Of a DNA stretch of 64,000 nucleotides, positions 52,436-62,538 are shown piece by piece (position 1 is the first letter of the stretch; each line of letters starts with the position of its first letter). Source of the DNA: Actinoallomurus soli. GTDB lineage: Bacteria; Actinomycetota; Actinomycetes; Streptosporangiales; Streptosporangiaceae. The notes beneath the pieces are model-generated. The model saw only the letters and a program-made list of their open reading frames with translations. It searched no databases and was not told where the DNA came from. A program made the translations under genes and the position numbers. The stretch spans positions 1 through 64,000 of the forward strand of contig NZ_JAMXMV010000034.1 of the NCBI RefSeq assembly GCF_024055715.1. The letters are read 5' to 3'.

Positions 52436-52762
52436 ATGTTCCGACAGGGAGACCTTCTCATCGTGCCCGTGCCCGACGACGCCGTTCCCGCCGAGGCGCA
52501 GGCGCTGCCGCCGGCGGAGCGCGACGGCCGCGGGCGGCTGGTCCTCGCGCTCGGCGAGGTGACGGGGCACGCGCACGCGGTCGTCGCGCCCGGCGCGCTG
52601 CTGCGCGACCCCGACCCGATGCGCCCGGACTATCTGCACCTGCCGTCCGGGGGCCGACTCGTCCACGAGGAGCATGCGGCGATCGCGCTGCCCAAGGGCT
52701 GGTTCCGGGTCGTCCGCCAGCGCGAGTACATACCCGGCGCGGTGCGTCCCGTCGCCGACTGA
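52436..52762 (+). CDS. Small protein paired with DUF6745-type gene
   Basis: A 108-residue cytoplasmic protein opening MFRQGDLLIVPVPDD, with a central GEVTGHAHAVVAPGA and ending in WFRVVRQREYIPG. It has no transmembrane segment. The pattern resembles short proteins found in front of DUF6745 genes. It lies 19 bp before that gene here, so the two form an operon. GACAGGG-like sequence follows rather than precedes the ATG, and the ribosome site is weak. Function unknown. Confidence 0.75.
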   Translation: MFRQGDLLIVPVPDDAVPAEAQALPPAERDGRGRLVLALGEVTGHAHAVVAPGALLRDPDPMRPDYLHLPSGGRLVHEEHAAIALPKGWFRVVRQREYIPGAVRPVAD

Positions 52763-52781
52763 GCAGGTCAGGAAGGTTCCC

Positions 52782-53870
52782 ATGAACACGCTGGTGACGC
52801 GGGACTGGCGGTCGGTGGCCTTCGCCACCGGTCCGGCCGATCGGGAGCGTGCCGAGGCGGGCATCCGCGCGGCGTACGCCGCGGCCGGGCTGACCGGTCC
52901 GGAGCGCTTCGTCTGGGCGCCGTCGCCCGCCTTCGGCGCGGTCGCGGCCGTGCTGCTGGACGATCCGGGGCATGCGGAGACATTGCGGCAGGGCGGCCTG
53001 GGCGATCAGGTGGATCGGGTCGGTGCCGCGTTGGGCACCGCGGATGCCGGGCGTTCGGTGCGTGACGCCGTGCGCACCCGGCCGTGGGAGGCGGCGCGGA
53101 CCGCGGCCCGGGCCGGGCTGAGCGCGCAGGAGTGGTCGGCGGCGTGGGCGCGCACCGGCGGTGACCTCTGGCGGCAGGTCGACGGGCTGGTCATCCGGAT
53201 CCGCCGGGGGCTCGGCGAGCTGGCGACCGGCGAGGCCGAGGCGCTGCTGCGGGAGGCGACCCTCGACGCGGTGCTCGGGCAGCACGACGCGCCGTGGCTG
53301 GCGCTGTTCGACGCGGTCGGCGGGCTGGAGGGTCTGGCGGGGCCGGCCGAGGCGGCGCGCGCGGCCGGCTGGTGGTGGCCGTACGAGCGACTCGTGATCG
53401 TCTGCGACCGTCCGTCGGAGCTCCATCGGGACGAGCCGGGCCGGCTACACCGCGGCGACGGTCCCGCGCTGAGCTACCCGGACGGTTTCGCGCTGCACGC
53501 CTGGCGTGGCATGCCGATCCCCGCCGACTTCATCGGCACCCTCACGGGGCTGACGGCGGAGCGGATCGCGGCGGAGGAGAACGCCGAGCTGCGCCGGGTG
53601 ATGCTGGAGAACTTCGGGTACGACCGCTACCTCGCGGAGACCGGCGCGCGGCCGCTCCACCGCGACGAGACCGGCGTGCTCTGGCGGATCGACCTGCCCG
53701 GCGACGAGCCCGTCGTCATGGTGGAGGTCGTCAACGCGACCCCGGAGCCGGACGGCACGAGCCGGACATACCATCTTCGGGTCCCACCGGGCACCCGCAC
53801 CGCGCGGGAGGGCGTGGCCTGGACGTTCGGCCTCACCGAGCAGGACTACCGGCCGGTCAGGCAGACGTGA
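52782..53870 (+). CDS. DUF6745-like protein of unknown function
   Basis: A 362-residue cytoplasmic protein. The N-terminal two thirds are helical and Ala-rich; then come WWWPYERLVIVCDRPSELH, GRLHRGDGPALSYPDGFALHAWRGMPIP, and a C-terminal beta part with VEVVNATPEPDG. These blocks match what I recall of the DUF6745 family, often seen with a short partner like the preceding 108-residue protein. GGAAGG precedes the ATG. Its end overlaps the end of the STM4011-type gene by 14 bp in convergent orientation. Confidence 0.75.
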   Translation: MNTLVTRDWRSVAFATGPADRERAEAGIRAAYAAAGLTGPERFVWAPSPAFGAVAAVLLDDPGHAETLRQGGLGDQVDRVGAALGTADAGRSVRDAVRTRPWEAARTAARAGLSAQEWSAAWARTGGDLWRQVDGLVIRIRRGLGELATGEAEALLREATLDAVLGQHDAPWLALFDAVGGLEGLAGPAEAARAAGWWWPYERLVIVCDRPSELHRDEPGRLHRGDGPALSYPDGFALHAWRGMPIPADFIGTLTGLTAERIAAEENAELRRVMLENFGYDRYLAETGARPLHRDETGVLWRIDLPGDEPVVMVEVVNATPEPDGTSRTYHLRVPPGTRTAREGVAWTFGLTEQDYRPVRQT

Positions 53871-54747
53871 GCGGTGCCGCACCCGTGCGGTGCGGCGCCC
53901 ACCACGGGCCGGCCGGGATCCGCTCGAGGACACCGCCGGCGAAGACGTCGTCCAGGCCGAGCGGCTCGAGGTGGACGTAGCCGATGTGGCAGTCGCAGAC
54001 CGCCAGCGGGCAGGGCCGGGGGCGCAACGCGGCGCGGAACGAGCCGTCGTAGAGGTTGCCGAGGACCTCCGGGACGAAGTGGCAGCGGCGCACCGTCCCG
54101 TCACCGTCGACGGAGATGACGCTGTCCCCGGTCCGGCAGGGCAGGCCCCGGCTGGCGTGCGGGTGCCGGCTGTAGCCGAACAGCGGGTCGATGGCGGCCC
54201 ACTCGGCGGCCTCGGCGTCGGAGTAGGCGTGCCCCTCGGCGGCGTTGACCCACAGGTAGGTCTCCGCCGGCAGGTCGGCCCGGAGCCGGCGGGCGTGCGG
54301 CAGGTGGTCGGGCAGCCCGACGATGCCCACGCTGTGCCGTACGCCTCGCTCGGTGAGTTCGCGGCATCTGCCGAGGAAGCGCTCGTACCGCACCTGACCG
54401 GGATGGTACGTCGCCCACAGCGCGAGCGTGGACGGGTCCGCGTCGGCGGTCCAGTCCAGGCGGGCGCTGAGATTGGTCTGGATCGCGACGCGCTCCACGT
54501 GCGGCAGGTGGCTGAGCCCGGTCAGGGCCCGGCGGTACCAGGACCGGACGAGTCCCTCGCCCCAGGGCGTGAACAGGACCGAGACGCCGTGGGACTGCGC
54601 CGCCACCCAGGCGGTGAAGCGTTCGAGGGCGGCGCGGTCGGCGCGCAGCTGTTCCGGGGTGTCGCGCCGCTTGGCGAACGGGCAGTACGGGCAGTCGTAG
54701 TCGCAGCTCGCGAGGGGGCCGCGGTACAGGATCGTCAGGTGGTCCAT
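53857..54747 (-). CDS. STM4011 family radical SAM protein
   Basis: A 296-residue radical SAM protein. CDYDCPYCPF (near residue 14) is the CxxxCxxC motif binding the 4Fe-4S cluster that cleaves SAM. More cysteines near the C-terminus (LPCRTGDSV, RRCHFVPEV, PCPLAVCDCHIGY) look like a second cluster or SPASM-like site. The start shares one base with the stop of the STM4012-type gene. It is the last gene of a five-gene run that matches the Salmonella STM4011-STM4015 set. The substrate is unknown. Confidence 0.85.
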   Translation of the reverse strand: MDHLTILYRGPLASCDYDCPYCPFAKRRDTPEQLRADRAALERFTAWVAAQSHGVSVLFTPWGEGLVRSWYRRALTGLSHLPHVERVAIQTNLSARLDWTADADPSTLALWATYHPGQVRYERFLGRCRELTERGVRHSVGIVGLPDHLPHARRLRADLPAETYLWVNAAEGHAYSDAEAAEWAAIDPLFGYSRHPHASRGLPCRTGDSVISVDGDGTVRRCHFVPEVLGNLYDGSFRAALRPRPCPLAVCDCHIGYVHLEPLGLDDVFAGGVLERIPAGPWWAPHRTGAAPLTSA

Positions 54748-56069
54748 CAGCGCGCCTCGTAGGCGTCCATGAGCGTCCGCACCCTCGGCGAGAACAGCGC
54801 CGGGCCGATCGCGTCGGAGTAGGCCAGGCCGTCCGGCGTGAGCCGGATGACCTCGGTCCGATCGTCGAGCCAGCCCCGGTCCGCCAGGGCCGTCAGTTCG
54901 GCGGCGAAGTCGGCGGCCGGGTCCGTGCCGAACCGCCGCCGGTAGTCCGCCCGCCGCAGACCGGACGCCTGCAGCAGGGACTGGAGGAGGTGACGGCGGC
55001 GCCGCTCGTCGTCGTCCAGCACGAAGCCGACGCGCGCGTCTCCGAACTCGCGGGTCCGTACGTACTCGTCGATGATGCCGCGCACGGCGCTCGCCCCGAC
55101 GGCGTACTCGAAGGAGTAGTGCAGTTCCGTCGTGTAGGACCGGGCGCCGCAGCCCAGGCCGACCATGCCGTCGGTCTGGCAGCAGTACGTGGTGCCGTCG
55201 TCGCCCGTGCCGGCGGACGGCCGCCGGAACATGCGCATCGACACCTGCTCGTAGCCGAGCCCGAGCAGGTGGTCGCGGCCGATGCGGTACAGCTCCAGCC
55301 GCTGGTCGTCCCAGCTCCTGCCCTGCCGGCCGAGCCCGGTGAGCGGCCGGACGTACAGCGGGTAGAGGTACAGCTCCTCCGGTTCCCAGGACAGCGCCGC
55401 GTCGAGCGAGGAGAGCCAGGACTCGGGGGTCTGGCCGTCGATGCCGTAGATCAGGTCGATGTTGAGCGTGTCGAAGCCGGTGGCGCGGATGCGGTCCAGC
55501 GCGGACTCGACCTCGGCGCGCTTCTGCGGGCGTACCGCGGCGCGGGCCTCGGCGTCGACGAAGCTCTGCACTCCGATCGAGACGCGGGTGGTCCCGCGTT
55601 CGGCGAGGACCGTCAGCCGGTCGGTGGTCGCGGTCGCCGGTGACGTCTCGACGCTGAGCGGGATCCGCGTGAGATCCGCGAAGCGCCCGGCGAGGTCGCA
55701 GAGGCGGTCCAGCTCCGCCGCCGTCAGATAGGTGGGCGTGCCGCCGCCGAACGCGGCGGTGGCGAAGGTCGCCTTGCCCAGAGCGTCGCCTACGGCGTCC
55801 GCCTGGCGTTCCAGCGCGTCCAGGTAGGCGGTCGTCAGCTCCTCGGGCGCGCCCGTACGGGTGAACAGGTTGCAGAAGCCGCAGCGCATCTCGCAGAACG
55901 GCACGTGCAGGTAGAGGAACAGCGCGTCGCGTCGCTCGTCCGCCCAGACGTCGGACAGCCGGGGACGCGGGGTGAGCGGCCGGTAAGCCGTCTTGTGCGG
56001 ATACGCGTAGACGTATCCCTGGTACGGGCGGGTCAGGTCCGGGGGCGCGGATGTGGTCGGCGAGGTCAT
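54747..56069 (-). CDS. STM4012 family radical SAM protein (HemN-like)
   Basis: A 440-residue radical SAM protein of the HemN/HemW-like group. LHVPFCEMRCGFCN holds the CxxxCxxC cluster motif, with AFGGGTPTYL and TTRVSIGVQSF as in HemN-like enzymes. The C-terminal wing is present. It need not be a coproporphyrinogen enzyme, since no heme gene is near and it lies in the STM4011-4015 set. The ATG at 56069 overlaps the previous stop (ATGA). Confidence 0.88.
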   Translation of the reverse strand: MTSPTTSAPPDLTRPYQGYVYAYPHKTAYRPLTPRPRLSDVWADERRDALFLYLHVPFCEMRCGFCNLFTRTGAPEELTTAYLDALERQADAVGDALGKATFATAAFGGGTPTYLTAAELDRLCDLAGRFADLTRIPLSVETSPATATTDRLTVLAERGTTRVSIGVQSFVDAEARAAVRPQKRAEVESALDRIRATGFDTLNIDLIYGIDGQTPESWLSSLDAALSWEPEELYLYPLYVRPLTGLGRQGRSWDDQRLELYRIGRDHLLGLGYEQVSMRMFRRPSAGTGDDGTTYCCQTDGMVGLGCGARSYTTELHYSFEYAVGASAVRGIIDEYVRTREFGDARVGFVLDDDERRRRHLLQSLLQASGLRRADYRRRFGTDPAADFAAELTALADRGWLDDRTEVIRLTPDGLAYSDAIGPALFSPRVRTLMDAYEAR

Positions 56070-56863
56070 GACAACAGGAACTCCGCGTATGGCACGGTCC
56101 ACACGATCTCATGGCCGAAACGGTGGCCCGTATGGCCGTCCTCGCCGTACGCGGTGCCGTGGTCGGAGCAGATGATGACGAAGCAGGGACGGCGCATCAG
56201 GTCGAAGAGGGCGCCGATGTGCCGGTCGACGTATTCGAGCGCCGCCGCGTGGGTGGCCCGCGAGTCCTGCCCGCGCTCGGCGCCGGCCGCGTAGAACCAG
56301 TTCGGCTGGTGCAGCGAGGACACGTTGACCAGCATGAAGAGCCTCCGGTCGGCCGGGAGGCCCGCGACCACGCGCTCGGCACGGGCGATCTGGTGCTCCA
56401 GCGACCTCGGGTCGGTCACGCCGAACTCCGGCTCCCAGTGGCTCTCGGCGAACAGGCCGGGCAGGGCCGAGCCGAGCGGGCCGCGCTTGTTGAAGAACCC
56501 CACGCCGCCGATGCAGACCGTGTGGTACCCGGCCTGGGCCAGCCCGGCCGGCAGGTCCGCGGCGTCGTACACCCACGTGCCGGGCTCCGTCGTCTCGCTG
56601 CTGGCGAAGCGAGCCGCGAAGAGCCGTGGATGCGGGCCGGGCCGGGCCGGGGTCGGCAGGAATCCCGCGAGGAAGGCCGCGTGCGCCGCGTAGGTGAAGC
56701 TGCCCGGCGTGTGCCGTCGCTCCCACCTGCCCTCCGGCAGCACCGCCGCCAGGGTGGGCGTTCGTCCGGCCGCCATCGACTCCACTGCGACGTCGTACCG
56801 CAACGTGTCCAGGGTGACCAGCAGCAGATCGTGGTCGCCCACGATGGCGTTCATGTCGCGCAT
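56066..56863 (-). CDS. STM4013 family sulfatase-like hydrolase
   Basis: A 265-residue protein of the alkaline phosphatase/sulfatase superfamily. The metal-binding opening LLLVTLDTLRYD is present, and FVIICSDHGTAYGEDGHTGHRFGHE carries the C-terminal Asp-His metal ligands. The classical sulfatase Cys/Ser-x-Pro-x-Arg formylglycine motif is absent, so it is more likely a phosphohydrolase or phosphotransferase. The start is the ATG at 56863 (GAGGG seven bases upstream) or 56854 (ATGA overlap). Confidence 0.85.
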   Translation of the reverse strand: MRDMNAIVGDHDLLLVTLDTLRYDVAVESMAAGRTPTLAAVLPEGRWERRHTPGSFTYAAHAAFLAGFLPTPARPGPHPRLFAARFASSETTEPGTWVYDAADLPAGLAQAGYHTVCIGGVGFFNKRGPLGSALPGLFAESHWEPEFGVTDPRSLEHQIARAERVVAGLPADRRLFMLVNVSSLHQPNWFYAAGAERGQDSRATHAAALEYVDRHIGALFDLMRRPCFVIICSDHGTAYGEDGHTGHRFGHEIVWTVPYAEFLLS

Positions 56864-57942
56864 GCCGGAACCCTCGTGGTCAGGGCGGCGGCGACCTGGG
56901 CGGCGTAGGTGTCCAGGCCCTCGGCGGGGCCGTCCGGCAGGCCGGTCAGGCCCGGCAGCAGGTCGCCGAACGCGTTGACCTCCGCCACCGCCGGACGCCG
57001 GCGGCCGGCGCCGATGAGCAGGTCGACACCGACCATGAGGCTGCCGGGGAAGCACGCCGCCGCCTCCGCGCAGATCTCGATCGCCCGCCGCCAGCCGGAC
57101 TCGCCGAGCAGCTCGCGCACCGCGCGCAGGTCCCCGCGTGCCCCGCCGAGATGCAGGTTCGTCATCGGGTGGCGGCTGGTGCGGACGACCGCGTGCGTCG
57201 GGCTCCCCGCGACCACCACCACGCGCAGGTCGAACACGCGGCCGCCGATCGACGCCTTGGGCAGCCAGGCCTCGACGTGCAGTCCGTCCGGAGCCAGCGC
57301 GTCGACGAGCGCCGCGACCTCGCGCTCGCTCTCGTACGAGCGGACGCGCAGCGAGTTGTGGAACTCTCCGTGGGCGTCGCGGGCCGCGGAGGTGACCGCC
57401 TTGATCCGGCCGGGGGCCACCTGCAGGGCGACGACCCCGGAGGCCGACGATCCGTGCGCCGGCTTGACGAACACCCGGCTCCGGCCGGTCTCCGCCATGC
57501 GGACGCGCAGTTCGTCGTAGCCGCGTACGGCCGGCAGCGCCGGCGGCACCGGCACGCCCGCCGCGCTGAGACGCGCGTGGCAGCGGCGCTTGTCGAACAT
57601 CACCGCGATCTCGCCCGCGTCGCCGAGCATCCGCGCCTCGCCGGCGGCGGCCGTGATCCGCCGGAGTCCGGCGGTGAAGGCCGCGTACCACCGCGCGGAC
57701 CCGGTGACGCGCGCGGGATCTCCCGGTCCGCGCAGCAGCGCGGCGGTTTCCGGGTCCTCTCCGGGAGAGTCGATGCGCAGGAACGTGCCCGGCTCGACGT
57801 GGATCCGGCTCCCCCGCAGCACGTCGCGCCAGTCGATGACACGCGGCTCGGGCAGGCCACGGCCGCGGCAGGCGGCGGCGAACAGCGCCGCCCGCCGGCC
57901 GCCCGGAACGGCGACCACGGTGAAGGCCGCCTCCGGCGTCAC
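56851..57942 (-). CDS. STM4014 family ATP-grasp protein
   Basis: A 363-residue protein with an ATP-grasp-type fold: FDKRRCHARLSAAGVPVPP (lid/central domain start), RVFVKPAHGSSASGVVAL (ATP-binding Lys and Gly loop), FDLRVVVVAG, and MVGVDLLIG then AVAEVNAFGD with the Mg-binding Glu/Asn. ATP-grasp enzymes ligate a carboxylate to an amine or thiol. It is the second gene of the five-gene set; its GTG overlaps the STM4015-type stop (GTGA). The substrate is unknown. Confidence 0.86.
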   Translation of the reverse strand: MTPEAAFTVVAVPGGRRAALFAAACRGRGLPEPRVIDWRDVLRGSRIHVEPGTFLRIDSPGEDPETAALLRGPGDPARVTGSARWYAAFTAGLRRITAAAGEARMLGDAGEIAVMFDKRRCHARLSAAGVPVPPALPAVRGYDELRVRMAETGRSRVFVKPAHGSSASGVVALQVAPGRIKAVTSAARDAHGEFHNSLRVRSYESEREVAALVDALAPDGLHVEAWLPKASIGGRVFDLRVVVVAGSPTHAVVRTSRHPMTNLHLGGARGDLRAVRELLGESGWRRAIEICAEAAACFPGSLMVGVDLLIGAGRRRPAVAEVNAFGDLLPGLTGLPDGPAEGLDTYAAQVAAALTTRVPACAT

Positions 57943-58868
57943 TCGTCGACCGCCACGTAGCGCTCGTCGTCCTCGGCCTTCTCCTGCTCGCTCAGGTCGA
58001 CCTCGACGCCGGGAAGCGCGGCCCGGACCCGTTCGACCATCCGGTCGCTGAGGAAGTGATGGTGCAGGTCGAGCCGCTTCAGGTGGGTGAGCGGCTGACC
58101 GGACAGCAACGCCTCCGCGCCCTCGTCCGTCAGGATGCCCATCGCCAGGCTCAGCGACTCCAGCCGGGCCACGACGGGCGCGCTCGCGACCGCCGCCGCG
58201 ATCTCGTCCTGGATCTCGCTGTCCTCCAGCCCGAGATGCCGCAGCGCGGGCAGCCGCTCTCCGCTCAGGACAGGGGCGAGGTCGGCCACGCCGGCGTTGC
58301 CGCCGTAGTTCTCGACGCCGAGCCAGAGGTCGAGGTGTTCGAGGTTCGGCAGGTCGCTGGCGGCCACCGCCCGCACCACATCCGCGGGCAGGCCGCCCGA
58401 CTCCATCCGCAGCACGGTCAGCGCCTCGCTCTTGATCGGGTCCATGGCGAGCCCGGTGCCGCCGCGCACCTCCAGACGCCGCAGGCCGGGGAACGCCGTG
58501 AACAGCGGCGTGATGTCGGACTGCTCGATCCAGGAGATCTCCGCCTCCTCCGCCTCGATGTCCCCGAGGAACAGCGCGCGCAGCTTCGGCAGCCGGCCGG
58601 CCGCCTCGACCAGCAGGTCCACCGGGTCGACCTCACCCGAGTCGTACGAGGCGCCCCAGTAGCCGATGACCAGGGCGGTCACCTGGGAGCCGTCGACCTG
58701 TCCGAGGAAGCGCTCGAACACCTCCTCGAACGCGGCCTCTTCGAACGCGGTGCCGATCCGCCAGGCGGCGGACGCCGCCGGCGGGAGCGGCTCCCCCGCT
58801 TCCTCGGCCAGCAGGAGATCGACGACCGGAAGGCCGTCGAATTCCGAGAGATGGTCGTCTATGAACAC
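57939..58868 (-). CDS. STM4015 family leucine-rich-repeat-like protein
   Basis: A 309-residue cytoplasmic acidic protein. Regular Leu-rich units (LPKLRALFLGDIE, FPGLRRLEVRGG, LPNLEHLDLWLG, LPALRHLGLEDSEI, LTHLKRLDLHHHFLSD) at about 25-residue spacing make a curved LRR-like scaffold. The GTG at 58868 has GGAAAGG-type sequence upstream; an upstream ATG at 58904 is possible. It is the first gene of the STM4011-4015 set and probably binds a partner protein or peptide substrate for the two radical SAM enzymes; this is inference. Confidence 0.85.
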   Translation of the reverse strand: MFIDDHLSEFDGLPVVDLLLAEEAGEPLPPAASAAWRIGTAFEEAAFEEVFERFLGQVDGSQVTALVIGYWGASYDSGEVDPVDLLVEAAGRLPKLRALFLGDIEAEEAEISWIEQSDITPLFTAFPGLRRLEVRGGTGLAMDPIKSEALTVLRMESGGLPADVVRAVAASDLPNLEHLDLWLGVENYGGNAGVADLAPVLSGERLPALRHLGLEDSEIQDEIAAAVASAPVVARLESLSLAMGILTDEGAEALLSGQPLTHLKRLDLHHHFLSDRMVERVRAALPGVEVDLSEQEKAEDDERYVAVDE

Positions 58869-59028
58869 AGCCGGAGACCTTTCCTCATGGATGACCCGAC
58901 ACATCTACCAGAGGGGGAAGACACTCGGCTGTCCGTTCGCGCGGAAACCGTTCGCCGCGGTCCCGAGGGCGGGGTTCCTCCCGGGAACCATTCCGTCAGT
59001 GACGCCCCAAACCGTACTGCGCAACCTA

Positions 59029-59235: not shown

Positions 59236-60630
59236 ATGGGAATGACGCAGGGTTACGCAGGCGGCGGATTCCGTAGCGCCGGGAGGCGCCCACGGCGGCT
59301 GATCGGTCTGGCGGCCACCGCGGTGGCGGCGGTTCTGCTGACCGCGTGCGGCAGCGGATCGGACACCCCGCCACCGGGATCGGCCACCGGTCAGGCGGCA
59401 GGCGCCGGCTGCGCCGCGGGCGCCGTACCGCTGACCTTCTGGGGATGGCCGGCCGGCTACGACCTCGCGGTCAAGGAATTCAACACGACGCATCCGGGCA
59501 TCTGCGTGAAGCTGGAGAACGCCGGCGCCACGACCGCCGAGTACGTCAAGCTCAGCGACGCCCTCAAGGCGAAGAGCGGCACCCCCGACGTGGCCACGAT
59601 CGAGTACTTCGAGGTGCCGTCCTTCGAGATCACGAACAGTCTCGTCGACCTGTCGAAGTACGGCGTCGGCGCGGCGAAGAAGGACGTGGCCCCGGTGGCC
59701 TGGGCCCAGGTCACCCGCGGATCGGCGCAGTACGCGATGCCGGTCGATCTCGGCCCGATGGCCCTCTACTACAACTCCAAGGCGTTCGGCCGCCACGGCA
59801 TCCCGGTACCGGCGACCTGGACCGAGTTCGCCGCGGCGGCGGACAAGTTGCACGCCGCGGACCCGAAGGCGGCGATCACCAACTTCGACCCGGAGAGCAC
59901 CCAGGACGTGCTCGCGTTGATGCAGCAGTACAACGCCTTCCCGTTCACCTACGGCGGTGGACGCAAGCTCGGCATCAACTTCACCGGGCCGGCCCAGACG
60001 GCCTTCGCCGAGTACTGGCAGAAACTGATCGACAAGAAGGAGGTCACCACCGCCGCCGACTTCTCACCGGCGCAGTGGTCCAACCTCGACAGCGGCGTGA
60101 ACGCGGCCCGTCTCAGTCCGGCCTGGGGACCGGTGGGGATGCAGCTCAACGTCAAGAAGACCATCGGTGATTGGCGCGCCGCCCCGCTGCCGCAGGTCAC
60201 GGCCGGCCAGAACCTGTCGGGCAACTGGGGAGGCTCGGCGCTCGCCGTGATCGCCGGGACCGAACACGCCAAGGAGGCGGCGCAGTTCGTCCAGTGGTTC
60301 GGCGCCTCGCAGGACTCGTGGAAGATCCTCAGCGGCAAGGTCGCCGGCGCGTTCCCCGGTTATCTCCCGCTGCTGAACTCCCCCACGTTCCAGGACTCCA
60401 CGCTGGAGATCTCCGGCGATTCCAAACCGAACGCGGTCTTCGCCAAGGCCGCGCAGAACATGGTGAACCCGCAGTGGCCCCCGATCATGACCGCGGCGCT
60501 GACCCAGTGGACCTCCACCTTCGCGGGGGTCAGCAAGGGCACCGAGACGCTGCCGGAGGCTTTCAGGACCTACCAGCAGCAGATGGTCAAGTACGCGAAG
60601 GACCAGGGATTCACGGTCACCGAGGGCTGA
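59236..60630 (+). CDS. Sugar ABC transporter substrate-binding lipoprotein
   Basis: A 464-residue lipoprotein of the extracellular solute-binding family 1 (MalE/UgpB type). Lipobox LLTAC at about residue 38, then VPLTFWGWPAGYDLAVKEFN, and the family block YAMPVDLGPMALYYNSKAF. It delivers an oligosaccharide to the two permeases encoded next. Start ATG 59236, or ATG 59242 with better spacing from GAGGTG. It is the first gene of an operon under two LacI operators and ending in a GH2 enzyme. The ATPase is not encoded here, as usual for actinomycetes that share MsiK. Confidence 0.92.
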   Translation: MGMTQGYAGGGFRSAGRRPRRLIGLAATAVAAVLLTACGSGSDTPPPGSATGQAAGAGCAAGAVPLTFWGWPAGYDLAVKEFNTTHPGICVKLENAGATTAEYVKLSDALKAKSGTPDVATIEYFEVPSFEITNSLVDLSKYGVGAAKKDVAPVAWAQVTRGSAQYAMPVDLGPMALYYNSKAFGRHGIPVPATWTEFAAAADKLHAADPKAAITNFDPESTQDVLALMQQYNAFPFTYGGGRKLGINFTGPAQTAFAEYWQKLIDKKEVTTAADFSPAQWSNLDSGVNAARLSPAWGPVGMQLNVKKTIGDWRAAPLPQVTAGQNLSGNWGGSALAVIAGTEHAKEAAQFVQWFGASQDSWKILSGKVAGAFPGYLPLLNSPTFQDSTLEISGDSKPNAVFAKAAQNMVNPQWPPIMTAALTQWTSTFAGVSKGTETLPEAFRTYQQQMVKYAKDQGFTVTEG

Positions 60631-60640
60631 GGATCAGCAC

Positions 60641-61597
60641 GTGAAAACCGCCCAGCGCGCATCCGCTCTCCACGAACCGGCGAGTCCGGTGGTTCCGCCG
60701 CGCAGGACCCGGCCGGCCCGCGGCTCACGGCGGAGCCAGTGGCCCGGTGCCGTGTTCATCACACCGCACATGCTGGCGCTCGCCCTGTTCATGATCGTCC
60801 CGACGGTCTACGCCGTCTACGACAGCCTCCACCGGACCCGGCTGATCGGCGGCACGACATACTCCGGACTCGCCAATTACCGCACCGTACTGAGCTCATC
60901 GCAGTTCTGGGACGGCGTGCAGCGGGTGCTGCTGTTCGGAGTGATCCAGGTCCCGGTGACGATCGCCATCGCGTTCTTCTTCGCCGCGATCTTCGATGCC
61001 GGTGTCGTCAAGTTCGACAGGTTCTTCCGCACCGTGTTCTTCATGCCGTTCGCGGTGCCCGGGGTCGTCGCGGCGATGATGTGGTCGTTCCTGCTGCTCC
61101 CCCACTTCGGCCCGTATCCCCAGCTCCTGAAGGCCGTCGGGCTGGGGGACGTCGACTTCTTCTCCTCCGGACTGATCACGCCGACGATCATTCTCATCGT
61201 GATCTGGGAATGGACGGGCTACAACATGACCATCCTCTACACGTCGTTGAAGGCGATTCCCCGGGAGGTCACCGAGGCGGCCATCACGGACGGAGCGCGG
61301 CTCTCGACCATCATCCTGCGCCTGAAACTGCCGATGGTGCGCCCCGCGATCATCATGCTGCTGTTCCTCAACACGGTCGGGGCCCTTCAGCTGTTCACCG
61401 AGCCGTCCATCCTGGCCGCGTTCCAGCCGCAGGCGGTGTCCTTCGGCTTCACCCCCACCCTCTTCGTGTACAACACCGCGGTGGGCAGCGGGGACTACAA
61501 CCTCGGTGCGGCGGCGGCGGTCATCCTCGCGCTGCTCATCGGTGTCCTCTCGCTCGCCGCCTTCGCGGTGCGCCGGCGCAACGGGGAGTTCCGGTGA
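60641..61597 (+). CDS. Sugar ABC transporter permease, MalF/UgpA-like
   Basis: A 318-residue inner-membrane permease with six hydrophobic segments and the EAA loop (EVTEAAITDGARLSTIILRLKLP) that docks the ATPase. A basic N-terminus of about 35 residues precedes the first helix. The GTG at 60641 follows GAGGA. It pairs with the second permease, whose GTG overlaps its stop (GTGA). Confidence 0.93.
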   Translation: MKTAQRASALHEPASPVVPPRRTRPARGSRRSQWPGAVFITPHMLALALFMIVPTVYAVYDSLHRTRLIGGTTYSGLANYRTVLSSSQFWDGVQRVLLFGVIQVPVTIAIAFFFAAIFDAGVVKFDRFFRTVFFMPFAVPGVVAAMMWSFLLLPHFGPYPQLLKAVGLGDVDFFSSGLITPTIILIVIWEWTGYNMTILYTSLKAIPREVTEAAITDGARLSTIILRLKLPMVRPAIIMLLFLNTVGALQLFTEPSILAAFQPQAVSFGFTPTLFVYNTAVGSGDYNLGAAAAVILALLIGVLSLAAFAVRRRNGEFR

Positions 61598-62538
61598 GCC
61601 CGCGGCGGAACACGGAGAGGAGGGCGACCGCCTCGACGCGAGAACCGCGCCGGCGCCCCGGCGGAATCTCGCCCCGCCTGTACGGTCTCCCGCGGGGGAC
61701 CACCACACTCCTGACGCTCATCAGCGCGGCATTCGCGCTGTTCATCCTGGCGCCGCTGGTCTGGCTGCTGATCAACTCCACCAAGACGCAGGTGAACGTG
61801 TACGTGACGCCGGGATTCTGGTTCGCCCGGCCGTTCCGGCTGTTCCAGAATTTGGCCGACCTCGGCAGGAACGTCAGTGGCGCCGGGGTCTACCTGCGAT
61901 GGCTGGGCAACACCCTGCTCTACGCCGGAATCGCCGGCATCGGCTCGACGATCCTGTCGGCGATGGCCGGCTACGGTTTCTCCCGTTACCGGTTCCGCGG
62001 CGCCAACAGCATCTTCTACCTGGTGATGTCGACCCTCCTGGTGCCGGTCAGCGCGATCTCCCTGCCGCTGTTCCTGGTGTACGCCAAGGTCGGCCTGGTC
62101 AATTCGATCTGGGGCATGATCCTGCCCAGCATGGTCTCGCCGGTGGGCATCTACCTGATGCGGACCTACATCGACGCGTCGGTCCCCCGTGACCTGCTCG
62201 ATGCCGCTCGCCTCGACGGTGCGGGCGAACTACGCGTCTTCGTGCGCATCGCGCTGCCGCTGACCGTCCCCGGCCTGGTGACCGTCCTGCTGTTGACGGT
62301 CGTGACCGTCTGGAACAACTACTTCCTGCCGCTGGTCATCTTCAGCCGGAACAGCCTCTATCCGCTCACCGTCGGCCTGTCGGCCCTGTCCCAGGGGGCC
62401 GAAACAGGCACGAAGGCCAACATGGTCCCGGTGCTCATCACCGGCGGACTGGTCACGATCCTGCCGCTCATCGTCCTGTTCCTGCTGCTGGAAAGGTATT
62501 TCCGCGGTGGCGCGCTGCAGGGCAGCATGACCGGCTGA
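61594..62538 (+). CDS. Sugar ABC transporter permease, MalG/UgpE-like
   Basis: A 314-residue permease with six hydrophobic segments and the EAA loop (DLLDAARLDGAGELRVFVRIALP). An Arg-rich N-terminal tail precedes the first helix. GGGGAG is upstream of the GTG, which overlaps the preceding gene. The C-terminus YFRGGALQGSMTG is typical for MalG-like carbohydrate permeases. A GH2 glycosidase gene follows 52 bp later. Confidence 0.93.
   Translation: MSPRRNTERRATASTREPRRRPGGISPRLYGLPRGTTTLLTLISAAFALFILAPLVWLLINSTKTQVNVYVTPGFWFARPFRLFQNLADLGRNVSGAGVYLRWLGNTLLYAGIAGIGSTILSAMAGYGFSRYRFRGANSIFYLVMSTLLVPVSAISLPLFLVYAKVGLVNSIWGMILPSMVSPVGIYLMRTYIDASVPRDLLDAARLDGAGELRVFVRIALPLTVPGLVTVLLLTVVTVWNNYFLPLVIFSRNSLYPLTVGLSALSQGAETGTKANMVPVLITGGLVTILPLIVLFLLLERYFRGGALQGSMTG

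Follow-up and report, generated by a model that had tools for sequence, protein, structure and literature searches.

The window analysed here, 64,000 nucleotides of the Actinoallomurus soli genome (contig NZ_JAMXMV010000034.1, positions 1 to 64,000), carries an intact and overlapping STM4015-4014-4013-4012-4011 gene set at 53857-58868 on the minus strand, together with two plus-strand genes beside it. The features are as follows:

57939..58868, minus strand: STM4015 family LRR protein, 309 aa, GTG start (NF038076, 390 bits against a cut-off of 275)
57942..57962, minus strand: codons of the STM4015 C-terminal tail, RYVAVDE-COOH, the proposed modification site (C-terminal conservation in homologues)
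56851..57942, minus strand: STM4014 family ATP-grasp ligase, 363 aa (NF038074, 434.5 bits against 175)
56066..56863, minus strand: STM4013 family hydrolase or transferase of the alkaline phosphatase superfamily, 265 aa (NF038075, 413.8 bits against 250)
54747..56069, minus strand: STM4012 family HemN-like radical SAM protein, 440 aa (NF006067, 646 bits against 380)
53857..54747, minus strand: STM4011 family radical SAM protein with a SPASM-like, Cys-rich C-terminus, 296 aa (NF038073, 411 bits against 200)
52782..53870, plus strand: DUF6745 protein, 362 aa, convergent accessory gene (PF20530, 362 bits)
52436..52762, plus strand: small conserved protein, 108 aa, with GEVTGHAH and HEEH motifs, accessory, upstream of DUF6745

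Successive genes of the five-gene set overlap by 4, 13, 4 and 1 bp, their order is the usual one for STM4011-4015, and each of the five adjacent, same-strand genes encodes a protein that exceeds its own curated NCBIfam cut-off. These results bear out the first-pass annotation, made from the sequence, as to the placement and the identity of all five genes. Its description of the cluster at 53857-58868 as complete holds for these five, but the boundaries were drawn too narrowly, as the 108-aa and DUF6745 genes (52436-53870, plus strand) had been missed. For STM4015, the GTG at 58868, which is preceded by AGGAAAGG, yields a homologue-like N-terminus and is a better fit than the ATG at 58904 chosen by the ORF finder, to which the reading frame is open. 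The locus is of the same kind as the gene sets covered by NF038073-NF038076 and NF006067, here with the DUF6745 pair and a single LRR gene. Such sets span many phyla, Salmonella included, yet have no assigned function; our literature searches on the gene names, DUF6745, 2RA8 and the domain combinations found no described function for the system, and an earlier description within work on ATP-grasp amidoligases is possible. The gene set is known and widespread, while the reading of its LRR protein as a substrate, developed below, appears to be new here.

The DUF6745 gene is convergent with STM4011 and overlaps the 3′ end of the latter by 14 bp. Together with the 108-aa gene, it is a recurrent neighbour of the STM cluster in Deinococcus, Methylobacterium, Streptomyces and Chloroflexi, and the 108-aa gene, which matches phrog_27831, accompanies DUF6745 in both plasmid and genome loci. 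Within the order (Streptosporangiales), the high-scoring DUF6745 subfamily is linked to the STM cluster: of its 49 members, 48 share a contig with the cluster, and the remaining one lies on a separate contig of genome G242, in which the cluster's contig breaks off. Since the pair is often missing from STM loci of other phyla, we regard it as accessory to the cluster. The two genes also form a module of their own, being found next to each other, with no STM cluster, in Deinococcus ficus (L233, beside a VWA gene) and in Skermanella (L234). In Microcystis phage LMM01, gp175 (L235, 3968-5499) is a homologue of the 108-aa protein and gp174, the next gene, is as long as phrog_31813, the phage family with a match to DUF6745; the pair may therefore occur in phages as well. 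On the other side of the cluster, a sugar-type ABC transporter set (59236-62538, plus strand, thus opposite to the cluster) encodes a weakly MalE-like binding protein and two permease-like proteins; it adjoins the STM genes and gave no sign of belonging with them.

The proposal that the five genes act as one functional unit, for which phylogenetic profiling had been suggested as a check, was borne out when four of the families were profiled across 131 genomes of the order and the genome lists were compared by eye. Hits above cut-off were obtained in 77 genomes for STM4015, 77 for STM4014, 78 for STM4013 and 77 for STM4011, and the carriers were the same genomes with three exceptions: one with STM4013 alone (G208), one with an STM4011 remnant at a contig end (G233) and one in which STM4011 is cut by the contig end (G210). 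The cluster is present in about 60% of the sampled genomes of the order, and all four enzymes, including STM4012, are present in the 137 complete loci that were counted. Frequent occurrence of the families singly had been named in advance as the observation that would speak against a unit. It was encountered weakly: besides G208, two Chloroflexota contigs (L196, 5858-6688; L209, 6980-7846) carry STM4013 but none of the other four families, and co-inheritance is therefore not absolute. Loci L225, L226 and L227 of the order hold apparent cluster remnants, either STM4013 alone or C-terminal pieces of STM4011. The Salmonella STM4015-4014 DNA found no close match among 5,426 complete E. coli genomes. 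Three matches in phage collections (H15-H17) consist of Salmonella-type STM4013 sequence filed under phage or host names; two of the records are only 2-6 kb and one is a Salmonella contig. We treated them as probable host DNA and set aside a phage origin of the cluster. An anti-phage defence system was likewise rejected, as the PADLOC models gave no supporting match, the one weak hit being that of STM4012 to a single candidate model (E 9e-7).

The most conspicuous feature of the STM4015 family is its C-terminus. After following every STM4015 reading frame to its stop codon, we found that a Glu, as in LysW-type proteins, is the last residue in 268 of 272 distinct proteins; of the four that lack it, one is a wrong-strand ORF and another reads past a RYCSVAD tail. 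When the proteins were grouped at 60% identity, 73 of the 75 clusters ended in Glu, and the entropy across these clusters was 0.20 bits at this position compared to about 3-4 bits in the linker; the terminal Glu is also among the 12 invariant columns of a 41-sequence alignment. The tail has the consensus R-[YF]-x-[AS]-V-x-E-COOH directly before the stop codon, with Tyr or Phe at position -6 in 94% of clusters, and is preceded by an acidic linker (36.5% D+E vs. 6% K+R) that varies in both length and sequence. STM4015 proteins span at least eight phyla, and the tail was found in Actinomycetota as well as, in 80 loci from named genomes, in Paenibacillus (RYPSLTE), cyanobacteria (RYCSVAE), Myxococcota (RYVAVGE in myxobacteria), Chloroflexota (RFVAVSE) and Planctomycetota (RYIAVSE). 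STM4015 proteins ending in Glu also occur in Deinococcus, Methylobacterium, Salmonella (YTE) and Bacteroides (ITE), the residues upstream being more divergent in the latter two.

This tail is confined to the LRR proteins. In a scan of all ORFs of the fetched loci, the motif was present in 230 of 273 LRR ORFs and in only 2 of 20,107 other ORFs, and as both of the latter (in L096 and L106) lie inside or beside LRR arrays, they are probably LRR fragments read in another frame; the scan thus revealed no other tail-bearing substrate. The last residue of STM4014, STM4013 and STM4011 is not conserved (at most 37%), and the C-termini of DUF6745 and the 108-aa protein, which are also conserved (YxPxx[EQ]T, VAD), do not fit the STM4015 motif. 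Because the LRR stop codon overlaps the start of the ligase gene, the last codon could have been biased by the overlap itself. However, 20 LRR copies located off the enzyme cluster, on other contigs or far away, all end in Glu, and gene overlap is therefore not the explanation. Among the 137 complete loci, LRR genes number from 1 to 7 per locus while each enzyme is present once, with two split exceptions, and paralogues within one locus share 72% identity over the last six residues but only 17% in the linker. This pattern fits several substrates served by one enzyme set. Judging from these sequences, the STM4015 protein looks like a substrate rather than a passive scaffold. The first-pass annotation had pictured a substrate held by an LRR scaffold; the involvement of the LRR protein stands, as the probable bearer of the substrate site at its C-terminal Glu, whereas the passive role probably does not.

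Structure prediction gave a confident model of STM4015 (AF2, pLDDT 92.9), for which the closest solved structure is 2RA8 (Z 31.4, 32% identity), the Bacteroides fragilis LRR protein Q64V53_BACFR. This is a solved STM4015 homologue that was deposited as uncharacterised, and our search of the literature on 2RA8 found nothing on modification. The STM4015 protein encoded in a Bacteroides locus (L011, 7683-8756) has an N-terminal extension that is WGR-like in appearance.

The model of STM4014 (AF2, pLDDT 94.6) places the ligase close to enzymes that act on protein C-termini. Its best Foldseek matches are LysX, DcsG and ArgX bound to LysW, and the best 8 of the 50 VIA-align rows listed are all LysX, ArgX or RimK (Z 23.0-24.2), followed by glutathione synthetase (Z 22.4) and by D-Ala ligases and PurK (Z 20-21). 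Sequence profiles give weak matches to the same nearest relatives, LysX, ArgX and RimK; the NCBIfam rimK_fam model scores 21.5 bits, far under its cut-off of 143.4. The invariant residues D238-x-R240, R254 and T261-N262 align with the DIR ... R ... TN of LysX. In the known systems, LysX attaches an amino group to LysW at the gamma-carboxyl of its C-terminal Glu, with LysX and ArgX recognising the EDWGE motif (PMC10433800), and RimK extends RpsF with glutamates at the C-terminus (PMC10092738). The kinship of the ligase to enzymes that act on protein C-termini and the near-invariant C-terminal Glu of its neighbour are two independent observations that point to one reaction. STM4014 is thus probably a LysX/RimK-type ligase acting on the STM4015 tail, as far as the predicted structure can tell, and the ligation step put forward in the first reading gains support from the same model.

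The two radical SAM proteins have the features expected from their family assignments. In STM4011, the CxxxCxxC cysteines (C15, C19 and C22) are invariant and so are five in the C-terminal region (C204, C222, C246, C251 and C253), in agreement with the earlier description of a second radical SAM protein with extra C-terminal cysteines. This region matches SkfB (6EFN), a peptide-modifying enzyme and the nearest solved relative by sequence. The CxxxCxxC motif of STM4012 is present in 140 of 140 homologues, and its solved relatives are HemN (1OLT) and NocN, a HemN-type radical SAM methyltransferase. STM4012-like proteins were formerly named 'coproporphyrinogen III oxidase'. We rejected an identity as HemN or HemW, as the protein missed both NCBIfam cut-offs (133.1 bits against 324.95 for HemN; 139.4 against 205.4 for HemW), and that of HutW as well, while passing the STM4012 equivalog cut-off.

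A 22-sequence alignment of STM4013 showed D19, T57, D234, H235 and H247 to be invariant, with T57 at the nucleophile position. These metal-binding and Thr-nucleophile residues are those of the phosphodiesterases of the alkaline phosphatase superfamily, and the best solved relatives are nucleotide pyrophosphatases. STM4013 is accordingly predicted, from its sequence, to carry a Thr nucleophile of phosphoesterase or phosphotransferase type; the dephosphorylation put forward in the first reading is one candidate reaction. The earlier label 'sulfatase-like' is right as to the fold family (Pfam PF00884) and not as to a formylglycine sulfatase: the nucleophile position is an invariant Thr, and the C-x-[PSA]-x-R signature occurs in 0 of 147 homologues, a count that covered the Cys version, the Ser version being judged by eye. 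In Salmonella, a gene for a Cof-type HAD phosphatase follows STM4011 (L009, 11780-12514), and the Bacteroides STM4011 (L011, 10135-11700) has a long fused C-terminal extension that, judged from its sequence, is HAD-like in appearance. The two together hint at a phosphorylated intermediate.

We think it probable that the cluster is a protein-tail modification system, in which STM4014 loads the terminal Glu of STM4015 and the other enzymes process the tail or its cargo. STM4015 would display the C-terminal peptide R-[YF]-x-[AS]-V-x-Glu-COOH on its acidic linker; STM4014 would phosphorylate a carboxylate of the terminal Glu and join to it an amine, probably an amino acid; STM4012 (HemN-like) and STM4011 (SPASM-like) may next alter the attached group or residues of the tail; and STM4013 might remove or transfer a phosphoryl-type group. 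Underlying this proposal are the near-universal terminal Glu, which is confined to the STM4015 family, the co-inheritance of the genes, the multiplicity of LRR genes and the predicted ligase fold. Its counterpoints are that STM4014 scores far under the rimK_fam cut-off, that the ATP-grasp fold also serves non-protein substrates, as in D-Ala-D-Ala ligase and PurK, that the tail may be a structural cap, and that the terminal Glu is missing from a few LRR copies. Since LRR genes multiply while the enzymes remain single, and since neither a protease nor an exporter recurs in the cluster across the annotated loci, we lean slightly toward a modified LRR protein, rather than a released metabolite, as the end product. 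Naming the C-terminal Glu as the likely acceptor reduces five hypothetical families to one testable reaction. We are evenly divided on the broader idea that the LRR proteins represent a new class of genetically encoded carriers or modified effectors. In this view, a C-terminal warhead, cofactor or metabolite, which a RimK/LysX-like ligase and the two radical SAM enzymes build on the terminal Glu, would be common to proteins whose bodies differ, from Salmonella to Streptomyces and cyanobacteria.

A branch of the tail-modification reading, with which it is not mutually exclusive, takes the LRR protein to be a reusable, LysW-like amino-group carrier, on whose Glu the radical SAM enzymes build a small molecule that is then released as a diffusible metabolite. 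We consider this tentative. Structures of LysX and ArgX with LysW rank among those closest to STM4014, STM4015 linkers are acidic as is the EDWGE tail of LysW (PMC10433800), and pearlins offer a precedent for C-terminus modification with radical SAM steps (PMC9303977); against this, the cluster encodes no peptidase, no exporter recurs beside it, and up to 7 divergent LRR copies per locus would be odd for a generic carrier. Alternatively, the tail itself, with its Tyr or Phe at -6 in nearly all clusters and its Glu at -1, could be cross-linked or rearranged by the radical SAM enzymes in the manner of a RiPP, the ATP-grasp enzyme forming a graspetide-like link within the tail. The kinship of STM4011 to the peptide-modifying SkfB speaks for this, as does the presence of the graspetide ligase PsnB among the Foldseek matches of STM4014. 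However, PsnB ranks under LysX and RimK there, neither it nor any other graspetide ligase is among the 50 VIA-align rows listed, the tail usually offers no Lys, Ser or Thr at a set position for pairing with the Glu, and the LRR body greatly exceeds a usual leader in size. A RiPP precursor would be a short peptide whose core is cleaved off, encoded alongside a peptidase or exporter, whereas STM4015 is a 309-aa LRR protein and neither of these genes recurs in the annotated loci. We therefore judge this alternative unlikely.

Similarly improbable, in our estimate, is that the tail caps the LRR solenoid, or docks on the enzymes or another partner, while the substrate of the enzymes is some unrelated small molecule. 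The STM4015 model shows a fairly ordered tail (pLDDT 91 over residues 311-320, 79 at the last residue), and the ordered chain of 2RA8 (7-357) superposes up to the last residue of the STM4015 model, so the tail may serve as a structural cap. A cap or dock would rarely need an exact carboxyl terminus, however, and the Glu is the very last residue of 268 of 272 proteins despite the variable linker length; moreover, the resemblance of the ligase to enzymes of C-terminal Glu would be left unexplained. A pathway related to heme or porphyrins, suggested by the former name of STM4012-like proteins, is very improbable. It draws on the resemblance of STM4012 to HemN (1OLT) and HutW, but the missed family cut-offs described above tell against it, HemN-type enzymes include the methyltransferase NocN, and other porphyrin genes do not recur beside the cluster.

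For the tail-modification reading, the closest parallel is the LysW/LysX system, which likewise pairs a protein bearing an acidic linker and a C-terminal Glu with a ligase of the same fold, the nearest in structure to STM4014. The two differ in that LysW is a small zinc protein, with zinc-binding cysteines and EDWGE, while STM4015 has an LRR body and an R-[YF]-x-[AS]-V-x-E tail (RYVAVxE here), and in that the partners of LysW are lysine pathway enzymes whereas those in the STM cluster are radical SAM enzymes. RimK, an equally close ATP-grasp structure, also extends a protein C-terminus, that of ribosomal protein S6, but the STM cluster has a dedicated LRR protein as its proposed substrate and four clustered enzymes, and STM4014 scores below the rimK_fam cut-off. 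In pearlins (TglA, TmoA), the C-terminus of a ribosomal carrier is built upon, and the tmo pathway includes a radical SAM step (PMC9303977); the STM cluster differs in having neither a tRNA-dependent PEARL ligase nor a release protease, and in that the proposed carrier is a 309-aa LRR protein. If the proposal is correct, a folded repeat protein would join the short list of ribosomal carriers and precursors that includes LysW, pearlins and RiPPs, with two radical SAM steps.
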